NCBI GenBank assembly: GCA_002483865.1
Contig: DLIT01000081.1
Location: forward strand, 18,130 to 46,302
Direction: 5' to 3'
Length of the DNA: 28,173 bases
Source: Brevundimonas sp. UBA7635
GTDB lineage: Bacteria > Pseudomonadota > Alphaproteobacteria > Caulobacterales > Caulobacteraceae
Positions 8,808 through 24,962 of this stretch are shown in pieces. Below the pieces are notes generated by a model, which saw nothing but the letters and a program-made list of their open reading frames with translations, did not search any database and was not told the DNA's origin. How positions within the stretch are numbered: the stretch's first letter is position 1; every line of letters begins with the position of its first letter. The position numbers and the translations under genes are program-made.

Positions 8808-8808
8808 A

Positions 8809-8836: not shown

Positions 8837-8868
8837 CTCATCCTGTCGCCCACGCTGTCCCCTCGACT

Positions 8869-8879: not shown

Positions 8880-8900
8880 TATGACGAATAGGAGGTAGTC

Positions 8901-8933
8901 ATGACTTTTACATTAGGGCAACATTTCCTCTAA
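8901..8933 (+). CDS. Possible 10-residue leader peptide upstream of the IclR gene
   Basis: A very short reading frame, MTFTLGQHFL, is preceded by an excellent ribosome site (AGGAGG, 5 nt before the ATG). It ends 25 nt before the GTG start of the IclR regulator. The strong ribosome site is unusual for a chance frame and could indicate a translated leader or translational coupling. No run of identical regulatory codons and no clear attenuator hairpin were seen, so a functional role is unproven. Confidence 0.25.
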   Translation: MTFTLGQHFL

Positions 8934-8958
8934 GCCGGTTCTCAAGAGGTGAGAGTTC

Positions 8959-9732: not shown

Positions 9733-9735
9733 TTA

Positions 9736-9757
9736 GCAAACCCCGCCGCAGGTTTGC
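9736..9757. terminator. Weak hairpin between convergent IclR and TauD-like genes
   Basis: The 7-bp inverted repeat GCAAACC / GGTTTGC with an 8-nt loop starts 3 nt after the IclR stop and precedes the stop of the opposing dioxygenase gene. No T-tract follows, so it is only a possible terminator. Confidence 0.3.
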
Positions 9758-9789
9758 GACGGGGGCTCCGAGCCGTTCCAGTTCTGGCT

Positions 9790-10593
9790 TCAGACGACGG
9801 TTTGCTCACCGTCCTCGATCTGCACCCGATATCCCGAGCGGACTTGAGGATAGTAGTCCCAGATCGCGAGGTGCTGCGTGCATCGATTGTCCCAGAAGGC
9901 GACCGAATGTGGCTCCCAGCGGAAACGCATCTGGAAGTATTCATTGGCGCAATGGTCGAAGAGGAATTTCAGGATCGCATCGCTTTCCGGTTGGTCCAAC
10001 TCATTGATGCGCGCCGTGAACCCCCGGTTCACGTAAAGCGCCTTGCGACCCGTGATCGGGTGGGTCCGGATAACCGGATGCACGGCGATCGGGAACTTTC
10101 CTTCCGGATCGAAGCGGCCGAAAGCCAGACGACCGTCGTGGGTCGCCGTCAGGCCTTCGAGATAGGCCTTCATGCGATCCGACAGCGCATCGTAAGCCGC
10201 ATACATCGAGGCGAAGGCAGTGTCTCCGCCGAGAGTCGGCAGGGTATGCAGATAGAGGATGCTGCCCATAGGCGGCACGGTGGCGCAGGACATATCCGTA
10301 TGCCATTCTTCGCCAGCCACGTGCTTGGAGTTCTCGTCCGCATGCAACTTGCGAACCTCGGGATGATCCGGCAAGCCTTTCAGCGCGTGAATCTGAAGCG
10401 GTCCGAAACGCTGTCCGACATTTTTCAAGGACGCCGGATCAAGCGGTTGATCTCGAAAGAAGATGACCTGGTGTTCGCCGATCGCCCGGCAAACCTCGTC
10501 GAACTGCTGATCGCTCATCGCTGTCAGATCGACATTACCGATGATGGCCCCGATGCGCGGCGTCAAAGGTTCGACCGTGATGCTCTTGTACAT
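9790..10593 (-). CDS. TauD/TfdA-family Fe(II)/2-oxoglutarate-dependent dioxygenase
   Basis: A 267-residue cytoplasmic dioxygenase. The family's iron ligands are visible: His98 and Asp100 (EWHTDMS) and His241 (QHLAIWDYYP). Arg252, 11 residues later, is placed to bind the 2-oxoglutarate carboxylate; this spacing matches TauD. The length is close to TauD (about 280). Enzymes of this family hydroxylate next to a heteroatom and so split off sulfite (taurine) or a phenol (2,4-D), or oxidise other substrates. The gene is divergent from the first GntR regulator and convergent with the IclR gene. Its place beside an aromatic cluster suggests side-chain or ether removal to expose the ring, but the substrate is not shown by the sequence. 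Confidence 0.88.
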   Translation of the reverse strand: MYKSITVEPLTPRIGAIIGNVDLTAMSDQQFDEVCRAIGEHQVIFFRDQPLDPASLKNVGQRFGPLQIHALKGLPDHPEVRKLHADENSKHVAGEEWHTDMSCATVPPMGSILYLHTLPTLGGDTAFASMYAAYDALSDRMKAYLEGLTATHDGRLAFGRFDPEGKFPIAVHPVIRTHPITGRKALYVNRGFTARINELDQPESDAILKFLFDHCANEYFQMRFRWEPHSVAFWDNRCTQHLAIWDYYPQVRSGYRVQIEDGEQTVV

Positions 10594-10653
10594 TCCGCCC
10601 TCTAAGAAAATGCGGCTTGCGGACGATGGCCCCGCAACACCGTTGATTTGTAC

Positions 10654-10674
10654 TGTATGCCGTATACCGTATGC
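10654..10674. promoter_or_regulatory. Three tandem heptamers YGTATRC, candidate GntR operator
   Basis: TGTATGC, CGTATAC and CGTATGC lie head to tail (10654-10660, 10661-10667, 10668-10674) with a self-complementary GTATAC at the centre. They occupy the 155-bp divergent region between the TauD-like dioxygenase and the first GntR regulator. They differ from the TTGTATGACAA sites further right, so the first GntR protein probably recognises this element. The assignment rests on position and repetition. Confidence 0.5.
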
Positions 10675-10748
10675 TGCGGCTCTCCAATCATGATCAGGGC
10701 CGTATGGCGAGCCAGACTCTCAAATCCTGATAACTTCGGAGCACCGTC

Positions 10749-11405
10749 TTGCCGCAAAGCGTTCGCATCCCTGCTCCCTTGCGCCTTCGTGATCAGGTCT
10801 ATGATCGCCTGCGCGCAGACCTTGAAGACGGTCTGCTGCCGCCTGATCATCGCTTCGTCGAGCTGGAGCTGGCCGCGCGCTACGGCGTTTCCCGCACCCC
10901 GGTGCGTGAAGCCTTGCTGCAACTCTCGCGCGAAGGCGTGCTCATTCCTCTGGATCGAGGCTACGCACTCAACAAGGCCGACCTGAAGCAGATTCTCGAC
11001 CGCCTGGAGGTTCGCCGGATGCTGGATGTCCAGGTTGCCCGACGCGCGGCGAAAGAAGCAACGCCGCACCACATTCGGCTGGCGCAGGCGGCCTTCGACC
11101 GGGCCAGAGCCGCGCACGAAGCTGGCAGCCACCGCGCCTTCGCGATCGCCCAGGGAGAATTTAGAAGCGCCCTTCAGGAGGCCTGCTCGAATGAGACCCT
11201 CCGCCGATGTTCGGCACTTGTAGACGACAGCTTCCGCTTTTTGCGTCTTCGCCTGTTTGAGGACCCAACCAACCGCGAACGCACGCTCGCAGCCACGCAG
11301 GAAATCCTCGAAGCGATACGCACTAAATCGCCCGATCATGCGGAAACGGCCACCCTGAGATTCCTGGAAGCCCTGGAAGAATTCCACAAGGCTGCGGCCG
11401 GTTGA
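10749..11405 (+). CDS. GntR-family (FadR/FCD-like) transcriptional regulator 1
   Basis: A 218-residue regulator with an N-terminal winged helix (about residues 12-75) whose recognition segment ELAARYGVSRTPVREALLQL is the GntR hallmark. A helical C-terminal ligand domain of the FCD type follows (FRSALQEACSNETLRR, and acidic/His residues that usually bind a metal and an organic acid). The only reasonable start is the TTG at 10749, preceded by CGGAG at 8 nt; no ATG occurs before the DNA-binding domain. It is divergent from the TauD-like dioxygenase, with heptamer repeats between them. It ends 31 nt before the aspartate-dehydrogenase-like gene, so read-through is possible. The ligand is unknown. 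Confidence 0.88.
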   Translation: MPQSVRIPAPLRLRDQVYDRLRADLEDGLLPPDHRFVELELAARYGVSRTPVREALLQLSREGVLIPLDRGYALNKADLKQILDRLEVRRMLDVQVARRAAKEATPHHIRLAQAAFDRARAAHEAGSHRAFAIAQGEFRSALQEACSNETLRRCSALVDDSFRFLRLRLFEDPTNRERTLAATQEILEAIRTKSPDHAETATLRFLEALEEFHKAAAG

Positions 11406-11420
11406 ACTTTATCCGTAATA

Positions 11421-11431
11421 TCGTCATACAA
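11421..11431. promoter_or_regulatory. FadR-type operator copy 1 (TCGTCATACAA)
   Basis: The reverse complement is TTGTATGACGA, one base from the consensus copy. It lies 5 nt before the ATG of the aspartate-dehydrogenase-like gene, overlapping the leader. A bound repressor could therefore block transcription start or ribosome access. It also precedes the second GntR gene, which suggests autoregulation. Confidence 0.6.
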
Positions 11432-11436
11432 GGTGC

Positions 11437-12249
11437 ATGACGCGAAACGCCCTGCCCCGCCTTGCCCTGATTGGTTTTGGTGCCATAGGCGCGGAAATCG
11501 CAGTCTGTCTGTCCCGCCTCGGCGAGACTGATCGGCTTGTCGCTGTCCTGGTGCGTCCGGGTCGATCCGCACCGGCTGCGGTTCATGATGTAAAGGACCT
11601 GATTGCGGCGCGCCCGGATGTTGTAATCGAATGCGCAGGTCATGAGGCTGCGCTCGCCTATTGCGGCCCCCTGCTGAGGGCCGGGATCGACGTCCTATTG
11701 TCTTCCATCGGCATTCTTTCGGACGACGCCGTCCTTGCCGACCTGGCCCGGGCGGAGACCGAAGGTGGCGGACGGCTCTTGCTGGGTGCCGGTGCCGTGG
11801 CCGGACTTGACGGACTGACCGCAGCGGCTTTGGCTGGCGTCGATACTGTGACCTACCTGTCCTACAAACCACCTCATGCGTGGCGTGGGACGCAGGCGGA
11901 ACAGACGGTCAATCTGAATCACGAAGCGGCTGAGGTGGTCTTTTTCGAAGGCTCCGCCCGACAGGCCGCGCGCAACTATCCAAAGAATGCCAATGTCGCG
12001 ATCGCTGTGGCGCTCAGCGCCCTCGGCCCCGACCTAACGAAGGTCAAATTGGTGTCATCCCGAAGGGTGACCGACCCCCTCGGGGTGATTGAGGCAGAGG
12101 GCACCTTCGGCCGGTTCAGATTCGAAGTCCTGGCGCTTGCAGCACCCAGCAACCCCAAGACATCCGCGCTGACAGCCTATAGTCTGCTTCAATGCGTCAG
12201 ATTGGACGCGAGTCTGCCCGTCCTGCGACTGCCGGGCGTAAAATACTAA
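11437..12249 (+). CDS. Aspartate-dehydrogenase-like NAD(P)-dependent oxidoreductase
   Basis: A 270-residue cytoplasmic oxidoreductase of the L-aspartate dehydrogenase/NadX type. The N-terminal Rossmann motif is G13-x-G15-x-x-G18 (LIGFGAIG). The C-terminal domain has family motifs KPPHAWRGTQAE (144-155), YPKNANVA (181-188) and NPKTSALTAYS (239-249). Known members oxidatively deaminate L-aspartate to oxaloacetate, or give iminoaspartate for NAD synthesis. From memory, the family has a conserved catalytic His in an N-x-H-E segment before the last motif; here the aligned segment reads DPLGV (213-217) with no His. The enzyme may therefore act on another substrate. It carries an operator overlapping its leader and is followed 53 nt later by the second GntR regulator. 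Confidence 0.8.
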   Translation: MTRNALPRLALIGFGAIGAEIAVCLSRLGETDRLVAVLVRPGRSAPAAVHDVKDLIAARPDVVIECAGHEAALAYCGPLLRAGIDVLLSSIGILSDDAVLADLARAETEGGGRLLLGAGAVAGLDGLTAAALAGVDTVTYLSYKPPHAWRGTQAEQTVNLNHEAAEVVFFEGSARQAARNYPKNANVAIAVALSALGPDLTKVKLVSSRRVTDPLGVIEAEGTFGRFRFEVLALAAPSNPKTSALTAYSLLQCVRLDASLPVLRLPGVKY

Positions 12250-12302
12250 AGATGTTGACCGATGCGGATCGGCCCGCCGAAAACCGCGCCTGAGAGAGCT
12301 TC

Positions 12303-12986
12303 ATGGAAACCGAAGACCTGCGCATCGAAGAAGGGCCGACCCTGGTCCGCGAGCACGCGGCGCGCAAACTGAGAGACGCGATCGCTGCCGGCCTCTACAA
12401 GCCTGGTGCCCGCTTGGTCGAGCGCGAACTCTGCGATGCCCTCGGCGTCAGCCGAACCTCAGTTCGCGAAGCCATGCGTCAACTCCAGGCAGAGAATTTG
12501 ATACGGGTCGGTCCGAGACGAAATATCAGCGTCGCAATCCTGACCTTGCAGGATGCCCAAGATATCTATGAGCTTCGGGAGATGGTCGAACCGGTCGCCC
12601 TGCGGCGCTTCATCGCTGTCGCAGACGCCACGGCCCTCAAGCAGGTCTCTGAATCCTGGTCTGTCATGCGCAAGAATTTCGCAAAACGAGATTCCCTTGC
12701 ATTGGCGAGAGAGGCAACCCGACTTTACGAGCATTTCCTGACTCACTGCGGCAGCCCGGTTTACCGGGATACGGGTGTACAGTTGCTCAATCGCGTCAGC
12801 TATCTGCGTCTTGCAGCCATGTCCTCGCCGGGTCGCCTTGAAAGCGGCATGGAAGAGTGGCGCGCCATCGTGGAGGCGACGGTTCAACGCAAAGCGGACG
12901 ACGCCGCCGAAGCCTATGTTGCTCATATCCGAAACGCCCGGGTTGCGATCGAGCAGAAACTGGCGACCGAGGATGACAAGGTCTAA
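12303..12986 (+). CDS. GntR-family (FadR/FCD) transcriptional regulator 2, probable cluster repressor
   Basis: A 227-residue regulator. The winged helix (about residues 14-80) contains ERELCDALGVSRTSVREAMRQL. The C-terminal FCD domain (about 85-220) has the acidic/His pattern usual for binding a metal and a carboxylate (ELREMVEPVALRR, LYEHFLTHCGSP, HIRNARVAIEQ). It lies between operator copies 1 and 2, and FadR-subfamily proteins recognise TNGTNNNACNA. It is therefore the best candidate for binding the five repeated sites. Known carbazole clusters of Sphingomonas are also controlled by a GntR-type repressor relieved by a pathway intermediate, which makes a similar role plausible here. Regulator 1 cannot be excluded as the partner of the sites. 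Confidence 0.9.
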   Translation: METEDLRIEEGPTLVREHAARKLRDAIAAGLYKPGARLVERELCDALGVSRTSVREAMRQLQAENLIRVGPRRNISVAILTLQDAQDIYELREMVEPVALRRFIAVADATALKQVSESWSVMRKNFAKRDSLALAREATRLYEHFLTHCGSPVYRDTGVQLLNRVSYLRLAAMSSPGRLESGMEEWRAIVEATVQRKADDAAEAYVAHIRNARVAIEQKLATEDDKV

Positions 12987-12996
12987 TATTTTATGA

Positions 12997-13007
12997 TTGT
13001 CATACAA
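12997..13007. promoter_or_regulatory. FadR-type operator copy 2 (TTGTCATACAA)
   Basis: An exact reverse complement of TTGTATGACAA. It overlaps the -35 hexamer of the likely promoter of the FAD hydroxylase gene, so binding should block RNA polymerase. Confidence 0.75.
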
Positions 13008-13025
13008 ACATAGGCTTCCTATCCT
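12997..13025 (+). promoter_or_regulatory. Sigma-70-type promoter of the FAD hydroxylase-cupin operon
   Basis: TTGTCA (12997-13002) and TATCCT (13020-13025) are separated by exactly 17 nt and lie 24 nt before the ATG at 13049. The -35 hexamer is part of operator copy 2. This is the clearest promoter match in the window. Confidence 0.55.
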
Positions 13026-13048
13026 GCTTCGAGCAGGAGGGTTTGAAG

Positions 13049-14272
13049 ATGTCTGTCGACGATCGCGTTCTAATCATCGGTGCCGGGCCGGTCGGCTCAG
13101 TGCTGGCGCTGGCCCTGCGCCAAGCGGGCGTCAAGGTCGCCCTGATCGAGAAGCTGCCACGTCCGGATCATGACTGCCGGGCCGCCAGCTGCCATCCGCC
13201 CACCATCGCCATGCTGGAACGGCTCGGGCTGCTGGAAGCTGGCCTCGATCAGGGCCTGATTTCACCGGTCTTCCACTATCTCGACCGGCTTTCCGGCCAA
13301 CTGGTCGGTCGCTTTGATCTTCGCGCCATGCAGACCCCGCCCAAGCACGCCTATGTCCTGCAATGGGAGCAGTGGAAGATCGCCGAAACAGTTCTCGAGC
13401 GTCTCCAGGCGGATGAAGGCGTCGAACTTCTCATGGGTCACGAACTCCTCAGCTTCTCCCAGGACGATGAGGGGGTGACGGCCGTCATCGGCGATCCGGA
13501 CGGGCGCCCCATCAGCCTGACCGGTCGCTATCTCGTCGGCTGCGACGGCGGGCGCAGCACCGTCCGCAAGCTCGCAGGCATAGAATTCGAGGGATTCACC
13601 TGGCCGGAGCGCTTCCTCAAGATCGATACGCGCCACGATTTTTCGACGCTCGGCACCCACATCTCCAATCGCAACTACTTCTCCGCGCCCAATGATTGGA
13701 TGAACCTCTTCATGGCGCGCGGCGAGGACGGCGAAGGCATGTGGCGCGCCGTCAGCCCCGTCGATCCCGTCATCACAGATGAGGCGGCGACCTCGACAGA
13801 GGCGGTCGAAGCCCGGCTGCAGCGTTTCTGTCCCAAGCCGGGTCCCTATGACATCGTCACCACCGCTATCTACCGGGTGCATCAACGAGTAGCCAAGACC
13901 TTCAATCTCGGTCGCATTATCCTCGCGGGCGACGCCGCTCACGTAAATAATCCCGTAGGCGGCATGGGCATGAACGGCGGCATCCACGACGCCGTCAACC
14001 TGGCCGACAAGCTGACTGCGATCTGGTTCGACAAGGCCGACGCCGCGGCGCTCCTTGATCGCTATACGCGCCAACGCCGCAAGGCTCAGATTGACGGCGT
14101 CCAGGCGCAGAGCATTGCCAATAAGACGCTCCTGGAAGAGCGGGATCCGGAAGTTCGTGCGGCCAAGCTCCAGGACATCCGCCGAGCTTCGGCCGACCCC
14201 GACCAACACGACGCCTTTATCCGCAGGTCTTGCATGATCGACAGCTTCGCGGCCGCTGAAGCCGTCCTCTAG
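13049..14272 (+). CDS. FAD-dependent aromatic hydroxylase (MhpA/PHBH-like)
   Basis: A 407-residue flavin monooxygenase expected to use NAD(P)H and O2 to hydroxylate a phenolic ring. From the ATG at 13049: the FAD-binding G11-A-G13-P-V-G16 with acidic Glu34, and the second FAD motif GDAAHVNNPVGGMGMNGG starting near residue 294. A TTG two codons upstream is also open, but the AGGAGG at 13035-13040 fits the ATG (8 nt) and is too close to the TTG. At about 410 residues it lacks the thioredoxin-like C-terminal domain of MhpA or phenol hydroxylase (about 550-650) and is closer in size to p-hydroxybenzoate hydroxylase. It heads an operator-controlled unit with the cupin and could make the catechol that the extradiol enzyme cleaves. 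Confidence 0.88.
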   Translation: MSVDDRVLIIGAGPVGSVLALALRQAGVKVALIEKLPRPDHDCRAASCHPPTIAMLERLGLLEAGLDQGLISPVFHYLDRLSGQLVGRFDLRAMQTPPKHAYVLQWEQWKIAETVLERLQADEGVELLMGHELLSFSQDDEGVTAVIGDPDGRPISLTGRYLVGCDGGRSTVRKLAGIEFEGFTWPERFLKIDTRHDFSTLGTHISNRNYFSAPNDWMNLFMARGEDGEGMWRAVSPVDPVITDEAATSTEAVEARLQRFCPKPGPYDIVTTAIYRVHQRVAKTFNLGRIILAGDAAHVNNPVGGMGMNGGIHDAVNLADKLTAIWFDKADAAALLDRYTRQRRKAQIDGVQAQSIANKTLLEERDPEVRAAKLQDIRRASADPDQHDAFIRRSCMIDSFAAAEAVL

Positions 14273-14285
14273 AGGAAAGAACGAC

Positions 14286-14813
14286 ATGGAACACATCGCC
14301 CGCCACGCCCGCCCGGCTCATCTCATCGAGGCTTCTCTGGAAGACATTATGGGACGGTACGTCAAACGTTTCCGTGACACCCAGGCTGACTGGAACGCGT
14401 TCTCCGACGCCAGTATCGAAGGTTATCACCGCGCCCAGCACCGTTTTGTCGGCGCTGGCGCGTCCGGAAAGCACGAAGACACGGGTATCATTCCCGCCGG
14501 GGCCTTCACTCTGTCGATCATGAACGTCCCTCCGGGTCAGGGAAACGCACCCCACACCCACGAGGTGGAGGAAGTCTTCTTTGTTCTCCAGGGCGAATGC
14601 GTCGTCTTCATCGAGGATGAGGCAGGCCGACGCCTCTCTCAAACGCTGAAACCCTGGGAAATGATCTCCTGTCCGCCCGGCGTCATCCACGGCTATGTTA
14701 ATGAAGCCGACGCGCCCTGCTTCCTTCAGGTCATGCTGGGCAAGGGGCGTCCCGATACGGCCGGATTCGCCGACAGCGCCCTGTTCGAACGGCGCGATGC
14801 CCATCTCGCCTGA
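14286..14813 (+). CDS. Cupin-domain protein
   Basis: A 175-residue single-domain cupin. Metal-binding motif 1 is visible as His90, His92 and Glu96 (HTHEVEEVFFVLQGE), and motif 2 supplies His135 (PPGVIHGY), the usual 3-His/1-Glu set. It starts 13 nt after the FAD hydroxylase stop, with AGAGGAAAG as ribosome site, so the two are co-transcribed. Cupins in aromatic clusters can be ring-cleaving or side-chain dioxygenases, isomerases or binding proteins, and the motif does not separate these. An enzymatic role on the hydroxylase product is a reasonable inference. Confidence 0.85.
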   Translation: MEHIARHARPAHLIEASLEDIMGRYVKRFRDTQADWNAFSDASIEGYHRAQHRFVGAGASGKHEDTGIIPAGAFTLSIMNVPPGQGNAPHTHEVEEVFFVLQGECVVFIEDEAGRRLSQTLKPWEMISCPPGVIHGYVNEADAPCFLQVMLGKGRPDTAGFADSALFERRDAHLA

Positions 14814-14834
14814 CGCAGGGCCTTAGAAAAAAGG

Positions 14835-14867
14835 AAGGCGGGCGGCGTAGAGAGCTCCGCCCGCCTT
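14835..14867. terminator. Strong bidirectional terminator
   Basis: An 11-bp perfect GC-rich stem, AAGGCGGGCGG (14835-14845) with CCGCCCGCCTT (14857-14867), and an 11-nt loop. TTTT-rich sequence follows on the plus strand and an A-run (T-run on the minus strand) lies on the other side. It separates the convergent cupin and extradiol dioxygenase genes. Confidence 0.85.
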
Positions 14868-14890
14868 TTCTCTCGCCGGTGATGTCCGCG

Positions 14891-15691
14891 TCAGGGCATG
14901 AGCGCCACGCCGCCCATACCGCTCGCCCATTCGGGGACAGCTTCGTAGAAGATGCGCTCTCCCCTACAGCCTGGCATGGTGCCAGCCAATGCGATCCAGG
15001 CGTTGACCTCCAGGCCACCGTTGCCCGCGTCCCGCAGGATCTCCGCGTTGGACAGCCGAGCGAGAGCTTCGCCCCGTCCCTCCACCAGATCGGCGATGAA
15101 GGCCTCGTCCCATTCGGCGTTGACGCGCCCCTCTTGCGGCACGCCGAGCCAATGGGACAGACCTCCGCCCGCAAGGACCACAGTCTTTTCCGCCGGCGGC
15201 CTCAAGGTCTCTACATAGGCGCGAAGACGACCGCCGAGCGCGTAGGACTGAGCAGGCTCCAACGCCTCGGCGAAGACCGTATTGAGGTAAAAAGGAACTA
15301 CCGCCAGGCCGTGCCCCGGATCGACAATGCCCAATGGGATCATCATCCCATGGTCGGGCCGTACGCCGCTGAGCGACGCCGCCTCGTCATCCAGGAAGGC
15401 GACCAGGCCTCTAGCAAAGTCCGGCGCGCCCTTCACAGGATCCAGGGGCAGGCCCATGTCGCCGTAAGGCGTAAAGCCATCGTCCACGCCGATCCCGACA
15501 GGTGTGGGTCGATCCAGGCTGAAGTTGTTGAGATGATCGCTGGAGATGATCACCAGGACATCGGGTTTGAGCGCACGCAAACGCGCACCAAGGCGCTTCA
15601 TGCCCTCGAACACCCGTTCGGATTGCGCTTCAACGCCCTGGGGGGCACCCAGAACATGCGACATGGCGAAGCCGCCGACGATGCGTCCCAT
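14891..15691 (-). CDS. Extradiol ring-cleavage dioxygenase, catalytic (LigB/CarBb-like) subunit
   Basis: A 266-residue class III extradiol dioxygenase subunit that would open a catechol-type ring next to the diol (meta cleavage) using Fe(II) and O2. From the ATG at 15691: iron ligands correspond to His12 (GGFAMSH) and His53 (SSDH), with a Glu around 193 (NAEWDEAF). His180 in GGGLSHWLG is the likely acid-base residue; this pattern follows LigB. Two ATGs in a row (15694 and 15691) overlap the stop of the upstream small-subunit gene. The AGGAGG spacing favours 15691, and translational coupling is expected. Being paired with a separate small subunit points to LigAB, CarBaBb or similar two-component enzymes rather than MhpB. 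The true substrate is unknown. Confidence 0.9.
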   Translation of the reverse strand: MGRIVGGFAMSHVLGAPQGVEAQSERVFEGMKRLGARLRALKPDVLVIISSDHLNNFSLDRPTPVGIGVDDGFTPYGDMGLPLDPVKGAPDFARGLVAFLDDEAASLSGVRPDHGMMIPLGIVDPGHGLAVVPFYLNTVFAEALEPAQSYALGGRLRAYVETLRPPAEKTVVLAGGGLSHWLGVPQEGRVNAEWDEAFIADLVEGRGEALARLSNAEILRDAGNGGLEVNAWIALAGTMPGCRGERIFYEAVPEWASGMGGVALMP

Positions 15692-15963
15692 CATGCCCTC
15701 CTGTCGAAATAGTGACTGATCGGGAAGAAGGGCATGGTCGGCCGCTTCGACCAGATCAGCCATTTGATCACATAGTTCCCGTGCACGCCGAGAGCCGAAA
15801 GCTCATCGCGAGAGCCCTGACGAAGGATCGGACGCTGCTCGAGCGGAATTTCGAAGCGATCCATGAGACCATCGATGTCCGTCTGAACCAGCGCCCGATC
15901 CCCAGGCGTCGCCACCAGGTGCTCAATCAGCGCGTGGACGGCTGCCGGCGCCTCCCTCCCCAT
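15691..15963 (-). CDS. Extradiol dioxygenase small (LigA/CarBa-like) subunit
   Basis: A 90-residue protein starting at the ATG at 15963, with GGAAGG as ribosome site. It resembles the alpha subunit of protocatechuate 4,5-dioxygenase. The middle reads FEIPLEQRPILRQGSRDELSALGVHGNYVIKWL, a helical cap whose pattern of leucines and a late G-V-H is typical. In LigAB the small subunit covers the active site of the catalytic subunit. It begins 2 nt after the hydrolase stop, and its TGA overlaps the start of the catalytic subunit, so a stoichiometric complex is likely. The order small then large subunit is the same as carBa-carBb. Confidence 0.82.
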   Translation of the reverse strand: MGREAPAAVHALIEHLVATPGDRALVQTDIDGLMDRFEIPLEQRPILRQGSRDELSALGVHGNYVIKWLIWSKRPTMPFFPISHYFDRRA

Positions 15964-15965
15964 GA

Positions 15966-16781
15966 TCAGCCTTCCCGTGCCAGGAAGCGTTCGACAGCGG
16001 CGTTGAAATCGTCCGGAGCCTCGATCATGGCCCAATGACCGCAGTGCGGGACGATATAGCCCCAGCTGTTCTCAAGAAGTTCGAGGAACCGGTAGGCGCG
16101 CGGCAGAATCGAGACGCCATCCTCCTTGCCGTTCACCACCAGAACCGGCTGCTTGATCGTGCGGAGCCGTTCCTCGGCGTAGTTCAGCGTGCCCTTGCGG
16201 GTTTCCGCATTGATTGCGGCCAGTGCCGCGCGTGAGGCCGGATCGTCAACAATGTCGAAACGATACCGCACCATCTCATCGGTCGGAACAAAGCCGGGTG
16301 CCGTCAGACCACCGATGACGCGACGCATGCCCTCCACAGTGAAGTCATACTGAAGATTGTGCATCAGCTGCGGCGACGGCTTTTCAGGGATGGGCAGGCC
16401 TGCGCTGCCCATCAGGACCATGCGGCCGATCAGATCGGGGCGATCCAGCGCCACCCCAATCGCGGTGGCCCCGCCCATGGAATTGCCCACGATGTCCACG
16501 CCGACCAACCCCATGTCGTCGAGGAAATCGGCCATGTGTCGGTTGCGGCCCGGCTGGTCATACACATAGCTGGCGGGATCCGGCTTATCGGTCAGGCCGA
16601 AGCCGATCATGTCCGGCGCGATGACCCGGCGCGTCCTGGAGAAATGAGCAATGGTCGCCGCCCAATTGCCACGGCTGTCCGCGCCCGCGCCGCCGCCGTG
16701 GACCAGAACCAGCGGATCACCCTCGCCGGCTTCCAGATAATGGGTCCGAACGCTTCCGGCCTGAATGAACTTCGAATGCAT
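15966..16781 (-). CDS. Meta-cleavage product hydrolase (BphD/MhpC/CarC-type alpha/beta hydrolase)
   Basis: A 271-residue alpha/beta hydrolase that would split the C-C bond of a 2-hydroxy-6-oxo-hexa-2,4-dienoate, giving 2-hydroxypenta-2,4-dienoate plus a carboxylic acid. The catalytic triad is readable: Ser101 (GNSMGG), Asp221 (GKEDGVS) and His249 (CGHWAMIE). The oxyanion segment HGGGAGADSRGNW (28-40) is characteristic of this C-C hydrolase subfamily. The start at 16781 has a GGGAGG ribosome site and lies 14 nt after the Rieske oxygenase stop. Neighbours on both sides of this operon are oxygenase genes of the same pathway. The acid released depends on the ring substituent and is unknown; in the carbazole route it is anthranilate. 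Confidence 0.93.
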   Translation of the reverse strand: MHSKFIQAGSVRTHYLEAGEGDPLVLVHGGGAGADSRGNWAATIAHFSRTRRVIAPDMIGFGLTDKPDPASYVYDQPGRNRHMADFLDDMGLVGVDIVGNSMGGATAIGVALDRPDLIGRMVLMGSAGLPIPEKPSPQLMHNLQYDFTVEGMRRVIGGLTAPGFVPTDEMVRYRFDIVDDPASRAALAAINAETRKGTLNYAEERLRTIKQPVLVVNGKEDGVSILPRAYRFLELLENSWGYIVPHCGHWAMIEAPDDFNAAVERFLAREG

Positions 16782-16795
16782 GTCGTCGCCTCCCC

Positions 16796-17956
16796 TTACC
16801 GAAGCTTCTCGGGTGTCTGGATGCCTCTTCCGTGCCGACTCGCCACGCGGCGCCACTCAAGCAAGGTGCTGTCAGGCTCGCACAGCATTTCATCGACCCA
16901 GCCGTAGTCGTCGGCGTAGAAGGGTTCCGTCACTTCGCGTGCCCAGATGTCATCGCCGTTGAAGCCGTCCAGGCCATGGGGCTTCCAGATGCTCTCGAAG
17001 TCGCTGGCGAAGCCTTTGCGGTCTTCCTCCGTCTGGACTTTCTTGCCGATGGTCTGGACATAGAGGTGACGCTTGGCGTCCAGCGGCACATACCACTCGA
17101 ACTGGGTCAGGCCGGGGTTCGGGAAACTATCGACCTTGAGCACGCCGGGCAGCCAGATCGAGGTGCCCACCGAGGCCGAAGTCCCGTGCACCTGCTCTGA
17201 TCGCGGCCCACTGATCACGACCTGACCGTCGATCACTCCGTCCCACACCGGGTCATGCTGGCTGAAGTCATCGGTGACGCCCTTGGGCCCCTCCTCATCT
17301 TCGACCGCCTGCACGGCACCCGGACGGGGCGTATGGCCGATGGGGAAGTTGAACGTGCGATAGTGGCGCAGCGTCGTGTCTTTATGGATGAAGATATGCA
17401 GGCCGTCGAAACCGTTCTCGGCACCCAGGCGCCAATTCGAATCGACCACGCGGTGCTTGCCCAGGACCATGAGGTCTTCATCGAGAAAGCCCGGCGGTAC
17501 ATCGCGGGCCAAGGGATGAACCATGTCCTCGTCGCCGAGGAAGATGAAGATCAGCCCCTGGGCCTCCTCAACCGGATAGGTGACGATCTTGCGCCGACCG
17601 ATCAGACGGCTGTCCGGAACCGCCAGGATGTTGACCAGATCGCCGGTTTGGAATCGGTAGGTATAGCCGTGGTACCAGCAGGTAATGGTGTCCTTGGTAA
17701 AGCAGTCCGGCTTTTGCGACAGCGGCACACCCCGGTGCAGACATCGGTCGCGCATCGAATACACCACGCCGTCGATCCGCTTGATCAGCAGCCGCTCGCC
17801 GAGCAGTTCAACGACCTGCAGCTGCCCCTCGCCCAGCTCGTTGGAGAAACGGACAGGGTACCAGTGGTTCCGGAAACCCAGCTTGGCCTCCACGTAACCG
17901 CGCCAGTCCCCGACCATTTCAGCAACGTCCTCCCGGACAATCGATTCCTCACTCAT
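16796..17956 (-). CDS. Rieske non-heme iron oxygenase, CarAa-like (carbazole 1,9a-dioxygenase family)
   Basis: A 386-residue terminal oxygenase. The Rieske cluster ligands are Cys72/His74 (CLH) and Cys93/His96 (CWYH). The mononuclear iron ligands are His187 and His191 (LHIFIH), with Asp335 or Asp336 (NGDDIWARE). Asp184 (ENGFD) is the bridging residue. From memory of CarAa (384 residues; ligands H183, H187, D333), long stretches agree almost word for word: AKLGFRNHWYPV, SIWLPGVLKV, QFEWYVP and DDIWARE. The region of about 195-265, which lines the substrate pocket, agrees much less. CarAa-type enzymes are homotrimers without a beta subunit, and none is present here. It heads the operon with hydrolase and ring-cleavage genes under operator copy 3. 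Related oxygenases act on other N-heteroaromatics, so carbazole itself is not proven. Confidence 0.93.
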   Translation of the reverse strand: MSEESIVREDVAEMVGDWRGYVEAKLGFRNHWYPVRFSNELGEGQLQVVELLGERLLIKRIDGVVYSMRDRCLHRGVPLSQKPDCFTKDTITCWYHGYTYRFQTGDLVNILAVPDSRLIGRRKIVTYPVEEAQGLIFIFLGDEDMVHPLARDVPPGFLDEDLMVLGKHRVVDSNWRLGAENGFDGLHIFIHKDTTLRHYRTFNFPIGHTPRPGAVQAVEDEEGPKGVTDDFSQHDPVWDGVIDGQVVISGPRSEQVHGTSASVGTSIWLPGVLKVDSFPNPGLTQFEWYVPLDAKRHLYVQTIGKKVQTEEDRKGFASDFESIWKPHGLDGFNGDDIWAREVTEPFYADDYGWVDEMLCEPDSTLLEWRRVASRHGRGIQTPEKLR

Positions 17957-18010
17957 GCCCTGCTCCCTCCGCGCACTACGGCCGACAACCGCGCCAGCTC
18001 TTGATTTCAG

Positions 18011-18038
18011 ACTATATGATTGTATGACAAAGTGGCAA
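18011..18038 (-). promoter_or_regulatory. Promoter of the Rieske oxygenase-hydrolase-extradiol operon
   Basis: On the minus strand TTGCCA (18038-18033) and TATAGT (18016-18011) are 16 nt apart and lie upstream of the oxygenase ATG at 17956. Operator copy 3 fills the spacer, a classic repression arrangement. Confidence 0.5.
18020..18030. promoter_or_regulatory. FadR-type operator copy 3 (TTGTATGACAA)
   Basis: An exact match to TNGTNNNACNA. It lies between the divergent oxygenase operon (minus) and the reductase gene (plus), so one bound regulator could control both. The surrounding 19 bp, TATATGATTGTATGACAAA, are identical to the site at 20033. Confidence 0.8.
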
Positions 18039-18054
18039 GATGCAGAGAGGCACC

Positions 18055-19047
18055 ATGTTTCACGCCCAGCTAAGGTTCCAGGACGGAGCCGCCCTTAGCG
18101 TTCCGGTAGAAACCGGAGAGGCATTGGCAGAAGCGGCGGCCCGCCAGGACCTGCCCATGCGGCATGATTGCCTGTCCGGCGACTGCGGAGCCTGCCTTTG
18201 TCGAGCGACATCGGGAAAAACCGAATCCGATCCGACCGGGCTCCTGTCATCCGAGGAGGAGGCCGAAGGCCTGAGGCTAGGCTGTCAGACACGCCTAGCA
18301 TCGGACGCGATCTTCGAATTGGATTATCCGCTTCATCCGACGCCGTCGGCGGCGGGCCGCTATGAGGCGCAGGTGATCGCCCTGGAACGGCTCAATCCGA
18401 CAACCAGCCGGCTCGTCCTGCATTTGGAGAACGCCGAGGATCTGACGTTCGCGCCGGGCCAGTATGTCCGCCTTCGGCCCCCAGGGCTGCGGGTCGCGCG
18501 GCCCTACTCCATTGCCAGTACGCCGGACGCCCTGCCCGAGATGGAATTACTGATCCGCCATGTCGCCGGCGGCACCATTTCCGGCTGGCTCGAGGATCAG
18601 GCCGAGGTGGGCCAGAAGGTCCGGCTTCAGGCACCCCTGGGCGGCTTTGCACTCGATGACCGCAGCCCGTGCCAGATTTTCATCGGCGGCGGAACAGGCC
18701 TCTCACCTCTTCTGTCGATGATCCGGGCGGCTCGCGGCCGATCTGGCCGTCGTCTGCTCTGTTTCGGCTGCACCGCGCCGCCCGACCTGTTCCATATGGA
18801 AGAGTTAAGGGCTCTGGAAGCCGAGCGACCGGACCTTGAAGTGAGGATTGCCGTGATGAGAGGCGCACCGACGGGCACCGAAACCGGCACGGCTGTGGAT
18901 CTCCTGCGGCAAGAAGACCTCGAACCGGGTTGCGCCGTGCACCTCTGCGGTCCGCCTGCCATGGTAGCTGCGGCGCAGCAGTTCCTGAGAGACGCTGGCG
19001 TGGCACCCCACGCCATTCGCGCCGAGCGCTTTGCGCCTCGAGCCTAG
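18055..19047 (+). CDS. Oxygenase electron-transfer reductase (plant-type 2Fe-2S, FAD and NAD domains; CarAd/BenC-like)
   Basis: A 330-residue reductase passing electrons from NAD(P)H to the Rieske ferredoxin or oxygenase. The N-terminal plant-type 2Fe-2S domain has Cys39, Cys44, Cys47 and Cys77 (C-x4-C-x2-C...C). The FAD domain has R149-P-Y-S152, and the NAD domain has GGGTGLSPL (about 211-219) and CGPPAM (298-303). Domain order and length match CarAd (about 329) and BenC/AntC. The ATG at 18055 has AGAGAGG just upstream; an in-frame ATG at 18040 has a poorer ribosome site. Transcription would start at the shared divergent region holding operator copy 3. Its stop shares the bases CTAG with the stop of the opposing asparaginase-like gene. 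Confidence 0.93.
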   Translation: MFHAQLRFQDGAALSVPVETGEALAEAAARQDLPMRHDCLSGDCGACLCRATSGKTESDPTGLLSSEEEAEGLRLGCQTRLASDAIFELDYPLHPTPSAAGRYEAQVIALERLNPTTSRLVLHLENAEDLTFAPGQYVRLRPPGLRVARPYSIASTPDALPEMELLIRHVAGGTISGWLEDQAEVGQKVRLQAPLGGFALDDRSPCQIFIGGGTGLSPLLSMIRAARGRSGRRLLCFGCTAPPDLFHMEELRALEAERPDLEVRIAVMRGAPTGTETGTAVDLLRQEDLEPGCAVHLCGPPAMVAAAQQFLRDAGVAPHAIRAERFAPRA

Positions 19048-20006
19048 TGGTCTTTCAGCCAGTCGATGATCAAGGCCGATGCCTCTGACGTCGTTCGGCG
19101 ATCGCCCAGGGCGCAGGCGAGCAATATCCGCGCACGGCGAGCATCAAGGTCCTTCATGAAGATTGCGCCCGCGTCAAACAACCGACGCCCTGAAGCATAA
19201 ACGGGCGCAGCCTTACCCTCGAAGCACCCCGCAACGAGCCCAACCAGTCGCCCCGCCTCAACAGCACTCTTCGTCGCATCAACGACGCTTTCCGACGCAT
19301 TGCCGCAGCCCAGGCCCTGGATCACCATTCCATCCAGACAGGACGCCCCCGCCTCCACCAGCCGACCGTCCGACCCCAGGCCCAGGGTGACGATCTCGAC
19401 CGCAGCCATTGGCGCGTCCGACAGCGGAAAGGCGGGTCGAGGGCTGCGTGCAGCGAGCGGCGTCGTCGCACCGCACCGACCCACCATGGCCGCATCGGGA
19501 CCAAAGGCCTGCACGGCCTGAGCGTGAACCTTGCGCGCCCGCGTTGCCGTCAGGACGCATCCGCCAAATACGATCAGGACGCCCGCTTCAGCGGCACCGG
19601 GCCTCATAGCTGTCAGCACCGCCTCTGTCAGATTTCGTACGCCGTCATAGCCGGATTCCGACGGCGCACGCTGGGCCCCCGTGAAAATCACAGGCTTGGA
19701 GGCCGGGACGATGAGGTCGCACAAGAAGGCAGTCTCCTCCATCGCGTCCGTGCCGTGGGCCACCAGCACGGCATCAACGGAGGGATCAAGGCAGGCCGCG
19801 CGGACCGCCCACGCCACAATCATGGCGTCGTCAAAGGTCATGGCTTCGCTCAAACCACGATAGACTGAGCGCGTCTCTATCGTCGCCCACGGCGCGGCCT
19901 CAGCCAGATGCGCCAGGACATCGTCGCCGAGAACGCCTCCATCGAAGCCCCGCCCACGGTCCACGGCGCTGATGGTGCCTCCCGCATCGAGCATCACCAG
20001 ATGCAT
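19044..20006 (-). CDS. Asparaginase/glutaminase-family amidohydrolase
   Basis: A 320-residue type-I/II bacterial asparaginase homologue without a signal peptide, so cytoplasmic. The ATG at 20006 has a GGAGGG ribosome site. Visible catalytic residues are the nucleophile Thr11 (AGGTIS) and the second triad Thr86-Asp87-Lys159 (HGTDAMEETA and ATRARK). These match E. coli AnsB T12, T89, D90 and K162. The mobile-loop tyrosine (Tyr25 in AnsB) has no clear counterpart; the loop reads AVDRGRGFDGG. TGAQRAP also replaces the usual TGAMRP. These changes suggest a different amide substrate, perhaps an aromatic or conjugated one. Transcription starts at a promoter holding operator copy 4, making it a member of the cluster regulon. 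Confidence 0.88.
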   Translation of the reverse strand: MHLVMLDAGGTISAVDRGRGFDGGVLGDDVLAHLAEAAPWATIETRSVYRGLSEAMTFDDAMIVAWAVRAACLDPSVDAVLVAHGTDAMEETAFLCDLIVPASKPVIFTGAQRAPSESGYDGVRNLTEAVLTAMRPGAAEAGVLIVFGGCVLTATRARKVHAQAVQAFGPDAAMVGRCGATTPLAARSPRPAFPLSDAPMAAVEIVTLGLGSDGRLVEAGASCLDGMVIQGLGCGNASESVVDATKSAVEAGRLVGLVAGCFEGKAAPVYASGRRLFDAGAIFMKDLDARRARILLACALGDRRTTSEASALIIDWLKDH

Positions 20007-20023
20007 TGCAATCCCTCCCAAGT

Positions 20024-20050
20024 TTTATATGATTGTATGACAAACTGCAA
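20024..20050 (-). promoter_or_regulatory. Promoter of the asparaginase-like gene
   Basis: On the minus strand TTGCAG (20050-20045) and TATAAA (20029-20024) are 15 nt apart; reading TTTGCA instead gives 16 nt. The layout mirrors the oxygenase promoter, with the operator in the spacer. The -35 match is modest. Confidence 0.4.
20033..20043. promoter_or_regulatory. FadR-type operator copy 4 (TTGTATGACAA)
   Basis: Identical to copy 3 including flanks. It lies between the divergent asparaginase-like gene (minus) and the Rieske ferredoxin gene (plus), where it can control both. Confidence 0.8.
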
Positions 20051-20063
20051 AGGGATTTCCAGC

Positions 20064-20378
20064 GTGAGCGCACTTACCCGTCTTTGTTTCGTCGACGATC
20101 TTTCGCCAGGCGAAATGCAGCTCATCGAACTTGAGGGCATGGACCCGCTTCTGCTCTGCAACAGCGAAGGCCGCTTTCATCTGGTGGACGACGAATGCAC
20201 CCATGCCATCGCCTCGCTCTCAGAAGGCCGGTTGGAAGGCCATACCGTCTTCTGCCCGCTGCACGGGGGAAGTTTCGACGTCCGCAGCGGCAAGGCCCTG
20301 ACCCTTCCCTGCAAGCAGGCACTACGCACATTTCCCGTTGTCGTTGAGGACGGCGCGGTCTTTCTGCGACGCGACTGA
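20064..20378 (+). CDS. Rieske-type 2Fe-2S ferredoxin (CarAc-like)
   Basis: A 104-residue soluble ferredoxin. The Rieske ligands are Cys45-x-His47 (CTH) and Cys64-x2-His67 (CPLH), followed by the usual GGSFD. Size and motifs fit CarAc/NdoA-type ferredoxins that shuttle electrons from reductase to oxygenase. I prefer the GTG at 20064 with AAAGGGA upstream. The frame is open to an ATG at 20037, but that codon lies inside operator copy 4 and would add nine unrelated residues. It stands apart from the oxygenase and reductase genes, yet is joined to them by the same operator. Its stop is 11 nt from the stop of the convergent GGT-like gene. Confidence 0.92.
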   Translation: MSALTRLCFVDDLSPGEMQLIELEGMDPLLLCNSEGRFHLVDDECTHAIASLSEGRLEGHTVFCPLHGGSFDVRSGKALTLPCKQALRTFPVVVEDGAVFLRRD

Positions 20379-20388
20379 ATCGTCGCGC

Positions 20389-22179
20389 TCAGCGCCCGAC
20401 GGCGTAAGCCTGCATCAGCCGGGGCGTGGCCGCCCCCCGCAGCACACCGCCGCGTTCCCGTAGCGCGGCCGTCAGACGCCCAGCCGTCCAGGCCGCTGTC
20501 GTCTGCACCTCGTGGCCTCGTCGCCGCAGATCGGCGATGAGATCGGGTCCATAGCTCTCCTCTACCACAGCCAGTCCAGGCAATGCTTCGCGCGGGAAGA
20601 AAGAGGAGGGGAAATGCAGGCTGTGGAAAAGCGGCTGATCGATCGCTTGCTGCAGGGTCTTGCCGCCATGCAGATACCGCAGCATCAGGGCCGCCTGCCA
20701 CTGGTCCTGTTGATCCCCGCCCGGTGTACCGCAACTCAGCCACTGCCCCTCGGGACCGCGCGCCAGAGTCGGTGTGAGCGTCGTTCGCGGCCGCTTTCCT
20801 GGTGCCAGCGAGCCGGGCAATCCGTCTTCCAACCAAAACATCTGCGCCCGTGTATTCAGAGCGAAACCCAGTTCTGGCACCATGGGAGATGACTGAGGCC
20901 ATCCCCCCGACGGCGTGGCGCTGACCACATTGCCCCACCTGTCGATCACATCGAGATGCACGGTGTCACCCGGCCGCCGGGTGGGTTGGAGATGGATCAT
21001 CGTCGGCTCTCCGACGCCGATCCCCCCGCTGAGATCAGAGGCTTCTCTCACCTGCCCCAAGGCCCTGTGCACCTGGCCCTCAAACCCCCCGATCAGGCCC
21101 GGTCGGATGACGCTCGAAGCTGTCGCCTCAATCAGCGCAGCCCGCTCCCGTCCATAGGCATCGGACAAGAGGGTCTTGAGGGGGACGTCAACAAACTTGG
21201 GATCGCCGTAGTAGGCCTCGCGGTCGGCGAAGGCGAGCTTGAGCGCTTCAAGGATCAGATGGACACCCTCGGCCGTCTCAAGATCGATCCCGTCGAGGTC
21301 AAACGCCTTGAGAATGGATAGCGTCTGAAGAAGCACCGGTCCCTGCCCCCAAGTATCCGTCTTATAGATTTGCCATCCAGCATAATTGATCGACACAGGT
21401 GTCTCGTAGGTCGATTCCCATTCGGCCATATCCTGGCCGGTGATCAGACCCTTATGGGGACGTCCGCTCGCGTCCATAAGCGGCGCGGCGGACGCGAAAC
21501 GGTCGATCGCCTCCGCGACGAAGCCCTGGCTCCAAGCTCGACGCATTCGATCGATGCGGGTTTCCCGGCTCCCACAGCCCTGCGCGCCCAACAGCCGATT
21601 CCATGTTTCCGCCAGAATGCAATTGCGAAACCAATCACCCGCCTCGGGCGGCCGGCCTCCCGGCAGCCAAACCGGCAGGGACGAGGTCCAATGAGTTCGC
21701 AGCGCGTCGGCCACATCCGAAAGCGCCGCGGCAGCACCAGCGCTCATGGGGAAGCCCTGCATCGCGTACCCCATCGCCGGCTCCAGAACCGTCGCCGGCT
21801 CAAGCGTTCCATAATCACGGAGCAGCTTCATCCAGGCATCGAAGGCACCCGGCGTAACTGCCGCAATCAACCCCGAGCCAGGGACCATGTCCAGGTTGAG
21901 GCGGGAGAACGCTTCAATCGTCGCCGCGCGTGGAGCCACGCCTTGACCGCAGAGCACCCGGGGCTCGTCCTCGCCAGCCGCACGGAAAAGAATCGGAACC
22001 TCCCCTGCCGGCCCGCAAAGGTGCGGCTCCACCACCAGAAGAGCAAACGCCGCCGCCACGGCACCGTCAAAGGCGTTCCCACCGCGCTCGAGCATGGCCA
22101 TTGCGGTCTGTGACGCGATCCAGTGCGTCGACGACGCCATTCCGAAGACGCCGTAGATATCCGGCCGCGTCGTGAACAT
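20389..22179 (-). CDS. Gamma-glutamyltransferase-family Ntn hydrolase
   Basis: A 596-residue homologue of gamma-glutamyltransferase, a self-cleaving enzyme whose small subunit starts with the catalytic Thr. The expected processing site is near residue 406 in GDTVHLDVIDRWGN. Typical GGTs have two threonines there (TTH), while this one has TVH. Other family landmarks are present: ERGGNAFDGAVAAAFALLVVEPHLCG near the N-terminus and SATPSGGW after the nucleophile. No signal peptide is seen, so it is probably cytoplasmic, unlike periplasmic E. coli Ggt. The start at 22179 has GGGGTGGG just before it; an in-frame ATG at 22191 has no ribosome site. Operator copy 5 lies in its upstream region. It may hydrolyse a gamma-glutamyl or other acyl amide. 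Confidence 0.88.
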   Translation of the reverse strand: MFTTRPDIYGVFGMASSTHWIASQTAMAMLERGGNAFDGAVAAAFALLVVEPHLCGPAGEVPILFRAAGEDEPRVLCGQGVAPRAATIEAFSRLNLDMVPGSGLIAAVTPGAFDAWMKLLRDYGTLEPATVLEPAMGYAMQGFPMSAGAAAALSDVADALRTHWTSSLPVWLPGGRPPEAGDWFRNCILAETWNRLLGAQGCGSRETRIDRMRRAWSQGFVAEAIDRFASAAPLMDASGRPHKGLITGQDMAEWESTYETPVSINYAGWQIYKTDTWGQGPVLLQTLSILKAFDLDGIDLETAEGVHLILEALKLAFADREAYYGDPKFVDVPLKTLLSDAYGRERAALIEATASSVIRPGLIGGFEGQVHRALGQVREASDLSGGIGVGEPTMIHLQPTRRPGDTVHLDVIDRWGNVVSATPSGGWPQSSPMVPELGFALNTRAQMFWLEDGLPGSLAPGKRPRTTLTPTLARGPEGQWLSCGTPGGDQQDQWQAALMLRYLHGGKTLQQAIDQPLFHSLHFPSSFFPREALPGLAVVEESYGPDLIADLRRRGHEVQTTAAWTAGRLTAALRERGGVLRGAATPRLMQAYAVGR

Positions 22180-22207
22180 GTCCCACCCCATCGTGTTGCT
22201 ATTATTT

Positions 22208-22218
22208 TTGTATGACAA
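22208..22218. promoter_or_regulatory. FadR-type operator copy 5 (TTGTATGACAA)
   Basis: An exact copy in the 71-bp divergent region between the GGT-like gene (minus) and the BASS-type transporter (plus). The flanks are AT-rich (TAATAG on the minus strand could be a -10), but promoter hexamers are less clear than at copies 2-4. Confidence 0.75.
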
Positions 22219-22250
22219 TATTACAGACAATACGCAATCGGAGGTGAGTG

Positions 22251-23255
22251 ATGCGTCGCGTTCTTTCCTACATCGACCGCTACAGCCTTGCACTGATGGG
22301 CACAGTTGTCCTCGCCTCCCTGCTGCCAGCGCGGGGCGCGTTCGCCGAGGGCTTGGGCCTTGTGACCACGGCGGCTATCGCCCTTCTCTTCTTCCTGCAT
22401 GGAGCTAAGCTTTCGCGCGAGGCCGTTGTGGCTGGCCTCCTGCACTGGCGGCTTCATCTGATGGTGCTGGCGGCAACCTTCGTCATCTTTCCGTTGGCCG
22501 GGCTCGCGCTTCAGCCGCTCGCGGCGGTCCTGCTGGGAAGCGCCTTGGCGGGAGGGTTGCTGTTTCTCACGCTGTTGCCCTCGACCGTACAATCGTCGAT
22601 CGCCTTCACCTCCATGGCCGGGGGCAATGTGCCCGCGGCGGTCTGCGCCGCCTCTCTGTCCAATATTCTGGGCGTGTTTCTGACCCCGTTGCTGGTGGCC
22701 GTGCTGATGTCCGCCGGGGGAACCGCCGGCGTCTCGATCGACGCCATCTGGAAAATTATGCTGCAGCTCCTGGCCCCCTTCGTAGCCGGTCAGTTGCTTC
22801 AGCCCTGGGTCGGAGCCTGGATTCGCAAGCACAAGGCCCTGACCACGCAGGTCGATCGGGGCTCCATTCTGCTCGTCGTCTACGGCGCTTTCAGCGCCTC
22901 AGTCGTCGAAGGCCTCTGGTCTCAGGTGTCAGCGCTCGACCTCGGTATCCTGATCGGCCTTTGCTGCGCCCTCCTGGCCTTCATCATGGGCCTGACGACC
23001 TGGATCGCCCGACGCGCCGGTCTTTCTCGCGCCGACGAAGCCGCCTTGGTGTTCTGCGGCTCCAAGAAGAGCCTGGCCTCCGGCGTGCCGATCGCCGGGG
23101 CCATCTTTCCGGCCGCCCAGGCGGGCGCGATTCTCCTGCCCCTGATGATCTTCCATCAGATCCAGTTGCTGGTCTGCGCCGTCATGGCCCAACGCTACGC
23201 CGCACGTCAGGACAACGAGGCACCCGATCGGCTTCCCCAGGACGCCCCGGCCTGA
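22251..23255 (+). CDS. BASS/SBF-like membrane transporter
   Basis: A 334-residue inner-membrane protein with about nine or ten hydrophobic segments, of the bile-acid:sodium symporter-like (SBF/YfeH) superfamily. Typical segments include ALLFFLHGAKLSREAV (about 45-60), FLTLLPSTVQSSIAFTSMAGGN and LVFCGSKKSLASGVPIAGAIF. Relatives carry organic anions with sodium, although many in this branch are uncharacterised. The ATG at 22251 has GGAGGTGAGTG before it; the overlapping GTG at 22248 is less well spaced. The gene is controlled from the shared region with operator copy 5 and ends at a strong terminator. Import of the cluster's aromatic acid, or export of a product, is inferred. Confidence 0.87.
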   Translation: MRRVLSYIDRYSLALMGTVVLASLLPARGAFAEGLGLVTTAAIALLFFLHGAKLSREAVVAGLLHWRLHLMVLAATFVIFPLAGLALQPLAAVLLGSALAGGLLFLTLLPSTVQSSIAFTSMAGGNVPAAVCAASLSNILGVFLTPLLVAVLMSAGGTAGVSIDAIWKIMLQLLAPFVAGQLLQPWVGAWIRKHKALTTQVDRGSILLVVYGAFSASVVEGLWSQVSALDLGILIGLCCALLAFIMGLTTWIARRAGLSRADEAALVFCGSKKSLASGVPIAGAIFPAAQAGAILLPLMIFHQIQLLVCAVMAQRYAARQDNEAPDRLPQDAPA

Positions 23256-23304
23256 GGCTCCCACGGCTAGAGCGCCTGCGCCGGAAGCCGGCGTCAAGAA
23301 ACAA

Positions 23305-23332
23305 AAAAGCCGGGGCCTGAACCCCGGCTTTT
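23305..23332. terminator. Strong bidirectional terminator
   Basis: An 11-bp perfect stem, AAAAGCCGGGG (23305-23315) with CCCCGGCTTTT (23322-23332), and a 6-nt loop. T-runs follow on both strands. It separates the convergent transporter and tannase-like genes. Confidence 0.9.
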
Positions 23333-23351
23333 GGCCCCAGAAACGGCGACG

Positions 23352-24938: not shown

Positions 24939-24962
24939 TCTTGTCCCCTCCACTCCGAAACC

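Follow-up and report, generated by a model that had tools for sequence, protein, structure and literature searches.

A rare 11-base word probably marks the operators of one local catabolic regulon in Brevundimonas sp. UBA7635

We analysed a 28,173-nt stretch of the genome of Brevundimonas sp. UBA7635 (the window) that carries a cluster of catabolic genes and, among them, repeated copies of an 11-mer, TTGTATGACAA. An initial annotation had proposed that five copies of this word are operators that tie the cluster into a single regulon, under a GntR-type regulator encoded at 12303 (below, 12303). The five sites are present where it had placed them, four exact and the one at 11421 with one mismatch. 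Each lies, as it had also claimed, at the promoter region of a cluster gene or a divergent gene pair, with those at 18020, 20033, and 22208 occupying three divergent intergenic regions. The candidate operators are as follows:

11421-11431, minus strand: operator 1, TTGTATGACGA, one mismatch; 5 bases before the start codon of the aspartate-dehydrogenase-like (AspDH) gene, heading the AspDH-regulator pair
12997-13007, minus strand: operator 2, exact; before the flavin monooxygenase-cupin pair, its TTGTCA being a -35-like hexamer
18020-18030, plus strand: operator 3, exact; between the Rieske oxygenase and reductase genes, inside the spacer of a minus-strand TTGCCA-16-TATAGT
20033-20043, plus strand: operator 4, exact; between the asparaginase-like and ferredoxin genes
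22208-22218, plus strand: operator 5, exact; between the gamma-glutamyltranspeptidase (GGT)-like gene and the SBF-type transporter gene, inside the spacer of a minus-strand TTGTCT-18-AATAAT

The genes among which these sites stand are:

10749-11405, plus strand: second FCD/GntR regulator (below, 10749), arranged head to head with the TauD gene; an unlikely owner of the operators
11437-12249, plus strand: AspDH-like protein (Pfam Asp_DH_C)
12303-12986, plus strand: FCD/GntR regulator, the proposed operator owner (PF00392, GntR, E 1.2e-17; PF07729, FCD, E 3.7e-18)
13043-14272, plus strand: flavin monooxygenase; closest solved relatives PnpA and HspB
14286-14813, plus strand: cupin protein
14891-15763, minus strand: LigB-type ring-opening dioxygenase (PF02900), retained in 14 of 14 orthologous loci (see below)
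15966-16856, minus strand: meta-cleavage product hydrolase of the alpha/beta fold; best solved relatives are meta-cleavage hydrolases
16796-17956, minus strand: carbazole 1,9a-dioxygenase-type Rieske oxygenase; among solved structures, closest to carbazole oxygenases (E 7e-135)
18040-19047, plus strand: ferredoxin/flavin reductase
19044-20021, minus strand: asparaginase-like amidohydrolase
20060-20378, plus strand: Rieske-type ferredoxin; we chose the GTG start at 20060, in a frame open from 19908
20389-22293, minus strand: GGT-like protein, with a likely start near 22194
22248-23255, plus strand: SBF-like transporter

The exact word is rare outside this cluster. All four exact copies in the whole assembly lie within the window, where a first-order model predicts 0.002 copies for the window and 0.15 for the assembly; the scatter over random genome positions that would have spoken against an operator is thus not what we find. 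At one mismatch the assembly has nine sites, five of them in the window. As the assembly (2.16 Mb) is only 66.9% complete, it may lack additional sites. Allowing up to two mismatches, the window has eight matches (shuffled sequences: mean 1.94, largest 7), and its two-mismatch sites at 8869, 11857, and 16555 represent no excess over shuffles. Among 299 genomes drawn from the same order, the oxygenase (E <= 1e-100) was found in the window's own genome only, and the remaining 298 hold 93 exact copies of TTGTATGACAA, spread over 69 genomes (0.31 per genome). The initial annotation had also relied on TNGTNNNACNA, the consensus of Rigali et al. 2002 as cited in PMC2230225 and PMC9145765. All five operators do fit it, but the fit is weak evidence because 147 sites across the assembly fit as well, nine of them in the window, including four besides the five operators (5914, 6947, 8869, and 14024); it is the whole 11-mer that matters. 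The two-mismatch site at 8869-8879, TTGTGTGACGA, lies between TonB receptor and IclR genes and may be a weak sixth site, since TonB-type genes bear the operator in several related loci; against this, the window yields such two-mismatch matches by chance.

To follow the word into other genomes, we searched genome contigs with the oxygenase and obtained 40 loci, of which 14 (L011-L024, 74-83% identity) were taken as orthologous and the others (L025-L050, 35-53% identity) were excluded. The orthologous loci come from Sphingomonas, Croceicoccus, Novosphingobium, Pacificimonas, Niveispirillum, Caulobacter, Phenylobacterium, another Caulobacteraceae, Steroidobacter, Peristeroidobacter, and Pusillimonas. 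The exact word occurs at 13 of the 14 and at none of the 26 remoter loci. A whole-genome search covered the 13 genomes behind L011-L022 and L024, leaving out L023 (a 3.8-kb contig). Twelve of these genomes have two to six exact copies each, 42 in total, vs 9 for a reversed control pattern. All but one of the 42 adjoin homologues of cluster genes, even where these stand on a separate contig (L088 and L051; at L051 a ferredoxin homologue is the only one adjoining), and the single non-cluster site is within a catalase gene (L063). When 45 unique exact sites were mapped, L063 and L115 being mapped separately, 43 lay -40 to 350 bases from the start of a cluster-gene homologue, and the other two (L012 and L024) were at the start of open reading frames that group with the ferredoxin frames.

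An exact site stands at the flavin monooxygenase in 13 of 13 loci, whereas AspDH has a site at zero or one mismatch within 300 bases upstream in six of 13, the nearest such site carrying one mismatch in five of those six. Forty-three unique exact sites suggest a longer imperfect palindrome, ATGA-TTGT-ATG-ACAA-TCAT, with an asymmetric ATG centre; in the window, 12997 is the only site that fits this 19-base form with one mismatch, and 20033 fits with three. In the related genomes the word also marks MFS transporters, TonB receptors, TauD, and a tannase-like gene, which are unmarked or absent in the window. Four related clusters (L014 3116-6451, L011 742-4022, L018 710-4012, and L021 274-3544) group an MFS transporter with a luciferase-type monooxygenase and an alpha/beta hydrolase, the operator preceding the transporter; we did not see this trio in the window.

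How the sites sit relative to promoters bears on their possible action. A sigma-70-like consensus scan of 8600-23500, weak evidence when taken alone, gave six promoter-like matches against a shuffle mean of 2.4. Five of these matches overlap operators, four of the five operators being touched in this way, and one of the five matches shares just a single base with its operator. At the monooxygenase promoters, the gene strand reads TTGTCATACAA at all 13 exact sites and has a TA 17-18 bases past TTGTCA; 11 of the 13 have TANNNT at that spacing; being orthologous, these promoters are not independent. Counted over all sites, this arrangement occurs in the same orientation on 11 of 39 sides, all of them at the monooxygenase (shuffles: mean 1.4, largest 7), and in the opposite orientation on none of 22. 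The idea that TTGTCA is the -35 box at all promoters was rejected, as it holds at the monooxygenase promoters only.

As the sites lie over -35, spacer, or -10 elements, promoter blocking is the simplest reading. A 12303 dimer would bind TTGT-ATG-ACAA, often extended to the 19-base form, and in the absence of inducer the bound protein would keep RNA polymerase off until the pathway substrate or an intermediate released it. The one-mismatch site at 11421 would place the AspDH-regulator operon itself under weaker control; weaker control of an operon that often holds the regulator would also explain why AspDH sites tend to carry one mismatch and monooxygenase sites are exact throughout. The positions of the sites, their rarity, their conservation at orthologous genes, and their co-occurrence with 12303 are direct observations; binding, repression, the inducer, and the substrate are what we infer. 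We regard it as probable, with good confidence, that the five sites are the operators of one local regulon that 12303 represses until a pathway compound releases it, and the genes of the cluster are very probably under genuine joint control by an ordinary type of repressor. It is rather unlikely that 12303 acts here mainly as an activator: some GntR proteins of aromatic pathways do activate, such as BphR1 of KF707 (PMC10282184), but the overlap with predicted promoter elements fits blocking better, and GntR regulators are described in the same source as generally repressing.

If 12303 represses from these sites, it would do so through a kind of operator that is already known. The ChIP-exo motif of Escherichia coli YieP, atTTGTaTGAcaAAT, shares the 11-base core of the window operators, asymmetric centre included (PMC7642389). 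YieP has the same GntR and FCD domains as 12303 (Pfam), with about 25% identity overall and 42% in the DNA-binding part; its reported sites number 33 and are scattered genome-wide (PMC7642389), vs one local cluster here. A second case came from G306, a genome of the same order, which has four exact copies of TTGTATGACAA within about 15 kb (L085 1-20000, G306:C12) and two elsewhere. The four surround thiolase, short-chain dehydrogenase, AMP-binding, MFS, and TonB-receptor genes together with an FCD/GntR protein of their own. Neither the oxygenase (E <= 1e-100) nor 12303 (E <= 1e-40) has a match in this genome, and the set is apparently a distinct regulon that uses the same word. Given the YieP core and the FCD-linked copies in G306, several FCD proteins share this type of operator. 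Both cases lend some colour to the idea that a regulator encoded elsewhere, for example a YieP-like global FCD protein, reads the sites of the cluster. We consider this improbable, since a global regulator would have scattered sites and in the cluster genomes the word is nearly confined to the cluster (41 of 42 sites).

Better-studied regulators offer partial parallels. CarR of Sphingomonas XLDN2-5 (226 aa) is a GntR regulator encoded beside a CarAa-type oxygenase gene, as here (PMC2848856). L032 and L034, two loci of the car type in which CarAa has an FCD-like neighbour, gave no TTGTNNNACAA, and our literature search found no description of a CarR operator of Janthinobacterium J3 with a similar word. 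AnsR of Corynebacterium glutamicum is a FadR-subfamily repressor of the asparaginase operon that acts at an inverted repeat, ACCTGTCTGACAGCT, and is released by L-asparagine (PMC9145765). As that source presents it, AnsR differs in controlling one operon, in an actinobacterium, with no aromatic-pathway genes and with a site downstream of the transcription start. Atu1419 of Agrobacterium fabrum, from the VanR group of FCD proteins, represses a hydroxycinnamate aromatic pathway, and its palindromes lie on the -10 box or between the promoter boxes; it differs in that its palindrome, ATGTATACAT, has no three-base centre and it is a DNA-looping tetramer (PMC7797058).

Which of the two regulators in the window owns the sites had to be weighed separately. 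The initial annotation was right that 12303 is an FCD/GntR protein, which Pfam bears out for both domains; it needs correcting in that 10749 has an FCD domain too. Orthologues of 12303 occur in 13 of 13 cluster genomes, one in each (50-59% identity, E <= 1e-20), which gives comparative support to the earlier proposal of one regulon under an FCD/GntR regulator. Orthologues of 10749 occur in six of 13 (42-54% identity), five of them among the 12 word-bearing genomes. On this difference, 12303 rather than 10749 is the likely owner of the operators. A different element appears at 10749 itself:

10655-10674, plus strand: palindromic word GTATRCNGTATRC, in two overlapping copies, between TauD and 10749; proposed 10749 site

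This palindrome is common to four of five TauD-10749 regions (the window, L019, L020, and L089) at no more than two mismatches, and is found in the fifth (L088) only with four; it probably belongs to 10749. That the five sites are instead those of 10749, with 12303 controlling something else, therefore appears very improbable: the gene for 10749 ends 15 bases before the operator at 11421, but seven of the 12 word-bearing genomes have no 10749 orthologue (E <= 1e-20), and the TauD-10749 regions carry their own palindrome.

Relatives of 12303 outside such clusters also favour it as the owner. At the three best of 821 plasmid records (39-41% identity), the Mariluticola relative has the exact word, that of Methylobacterium has TTGTCTGACAA, and that of Rhizobium tropici has TTGTCTGATAA twice, all of them intergenic and at or beside the regulator gene. 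Among 18 more distant homologues (32-39% identity), two have TTGTNNNACAA within about 1.5 kb, and both of these loci read exactly TTGTCATACAA. At L099, as read by eye, the word stands 130 bases ahead of the matched stretch of an FCD protein and is flanked by TTGACA and TATGTA, which are separated by 17 bases. We rejected the notion that every 12303-like protein uses this word, as only these two of the 18 distant loci have it.

Several observations weigh against the proposed reading. First, Pusillimonas carries the cluster and a 12303 orthologue of 50% identity, yet its genome contains no exact copy of the word, and a search for TTGTNNNACAA near its cluster (L020) found none; in looking for a variant motif there, direct repeats were uninformative and the intergenic stretches, viewed by eye, gave no clear shared word. 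Second, AspDH lacks a site at zero or one mismatch within 300 bases in seven of 13 loci, and the low count among the distant homologues points the same way. Third, operator 11421 has no promoter-like match in the scan. Fourth, the TauD-10749 pair of Caulobacter RHG1 has the word beside the 10749 orthologue; as the two adjoin there, 10749 may act at some sites. This pair also led us to reject mutual exclusion of a 10749 orthologue and the operator at TauD, since RHG1 has both. Four-fold repetition alone is unremarkable: three other 11-mers of the window likewise occur four times, and some 11-mer reaches at least four copies in 12 of 30 simulated windows. The weight of the case is carried by the genome-wide and comparative tests, not by repetition as such. 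That the repeats are a chance or mutational artefact is scarcely credible given the rarity of the word in the assembly and in the 298 genomes, its promoter positions, and its conservation at orthologous genes in 12 genomes.

The gene content indicates what the regulon might do. The terminal oxygenase is of the CarAa type and shares 53% identity with a Rieske protein encoded on plasmid NC_004444 of Pseudomonas resinovorans, and a CarBb-like LigB dioxygenase and a CarC-like hydrolase are both present in the window. For the small subunit, CarBa, an open frame at 15691-16035 (minus strand) has no Pfam match at E <= 1, and a CarBa-like frame was not confirmed. Further genes lie downstream of the transporter:

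24963-27737: genes resembling hydratase, aldolase, and acylating dehydrogenase

Together, the LigB dioxygenase, the meta-cleavage hydrolase, and these lower genes plausibly make up a meta pathway following ring attack. The lower meta-pathway genes (23352-27737) have no preceding site at up to two mismatches within the contig, which ends at the window end. By eye, the contig end (28137-28173) resembles a partial minus-strand tRNA gene; ARAGORN finds none.

The XLDN2-5 cluster is described as one operon in the order carRAaBaBbCAc (PMC2848856), whereas the window has several divergent units and adds GGT-, asparaginase-, and AspDH-like genes and a monooxygenase, so we do not class it as a car operon. 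The presence of GGT-, asparaginase-, and AspDH-like enzymes in the regulon probably points to an amide or amino-acid part of the substrate. Guesses at a meta-tyrosine-like, oxindole-acetate-like, or beta-carboline-like substrate had no support. In the one open-licence library that was searched, by its listings, we found no description of this gene set (CarAa-like oxygenase, LigB cleavage, hydrolase, and GGT/asparaginase/AspDH-like enzymes). It could go either way whether 12303 and its orthologues control a pathway that is undescribed and has spread horizontally, its operator word unchanged from alpha- to gammaproteobacteria, in which a nitrogen-bearing aromatic natural compound would be degraded by carbazole-dioxygenase-type attack and aspartate or a similar amino acid recovered. 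If this is true, the operator map tells which genes form the pathway.

The operator word labels the members of the pathway, and a ready-made reporter for the inducer search could be built on it. It also links the operator core known from YieP of E. coli with a further FCD regulon, distinct from that of YieP.

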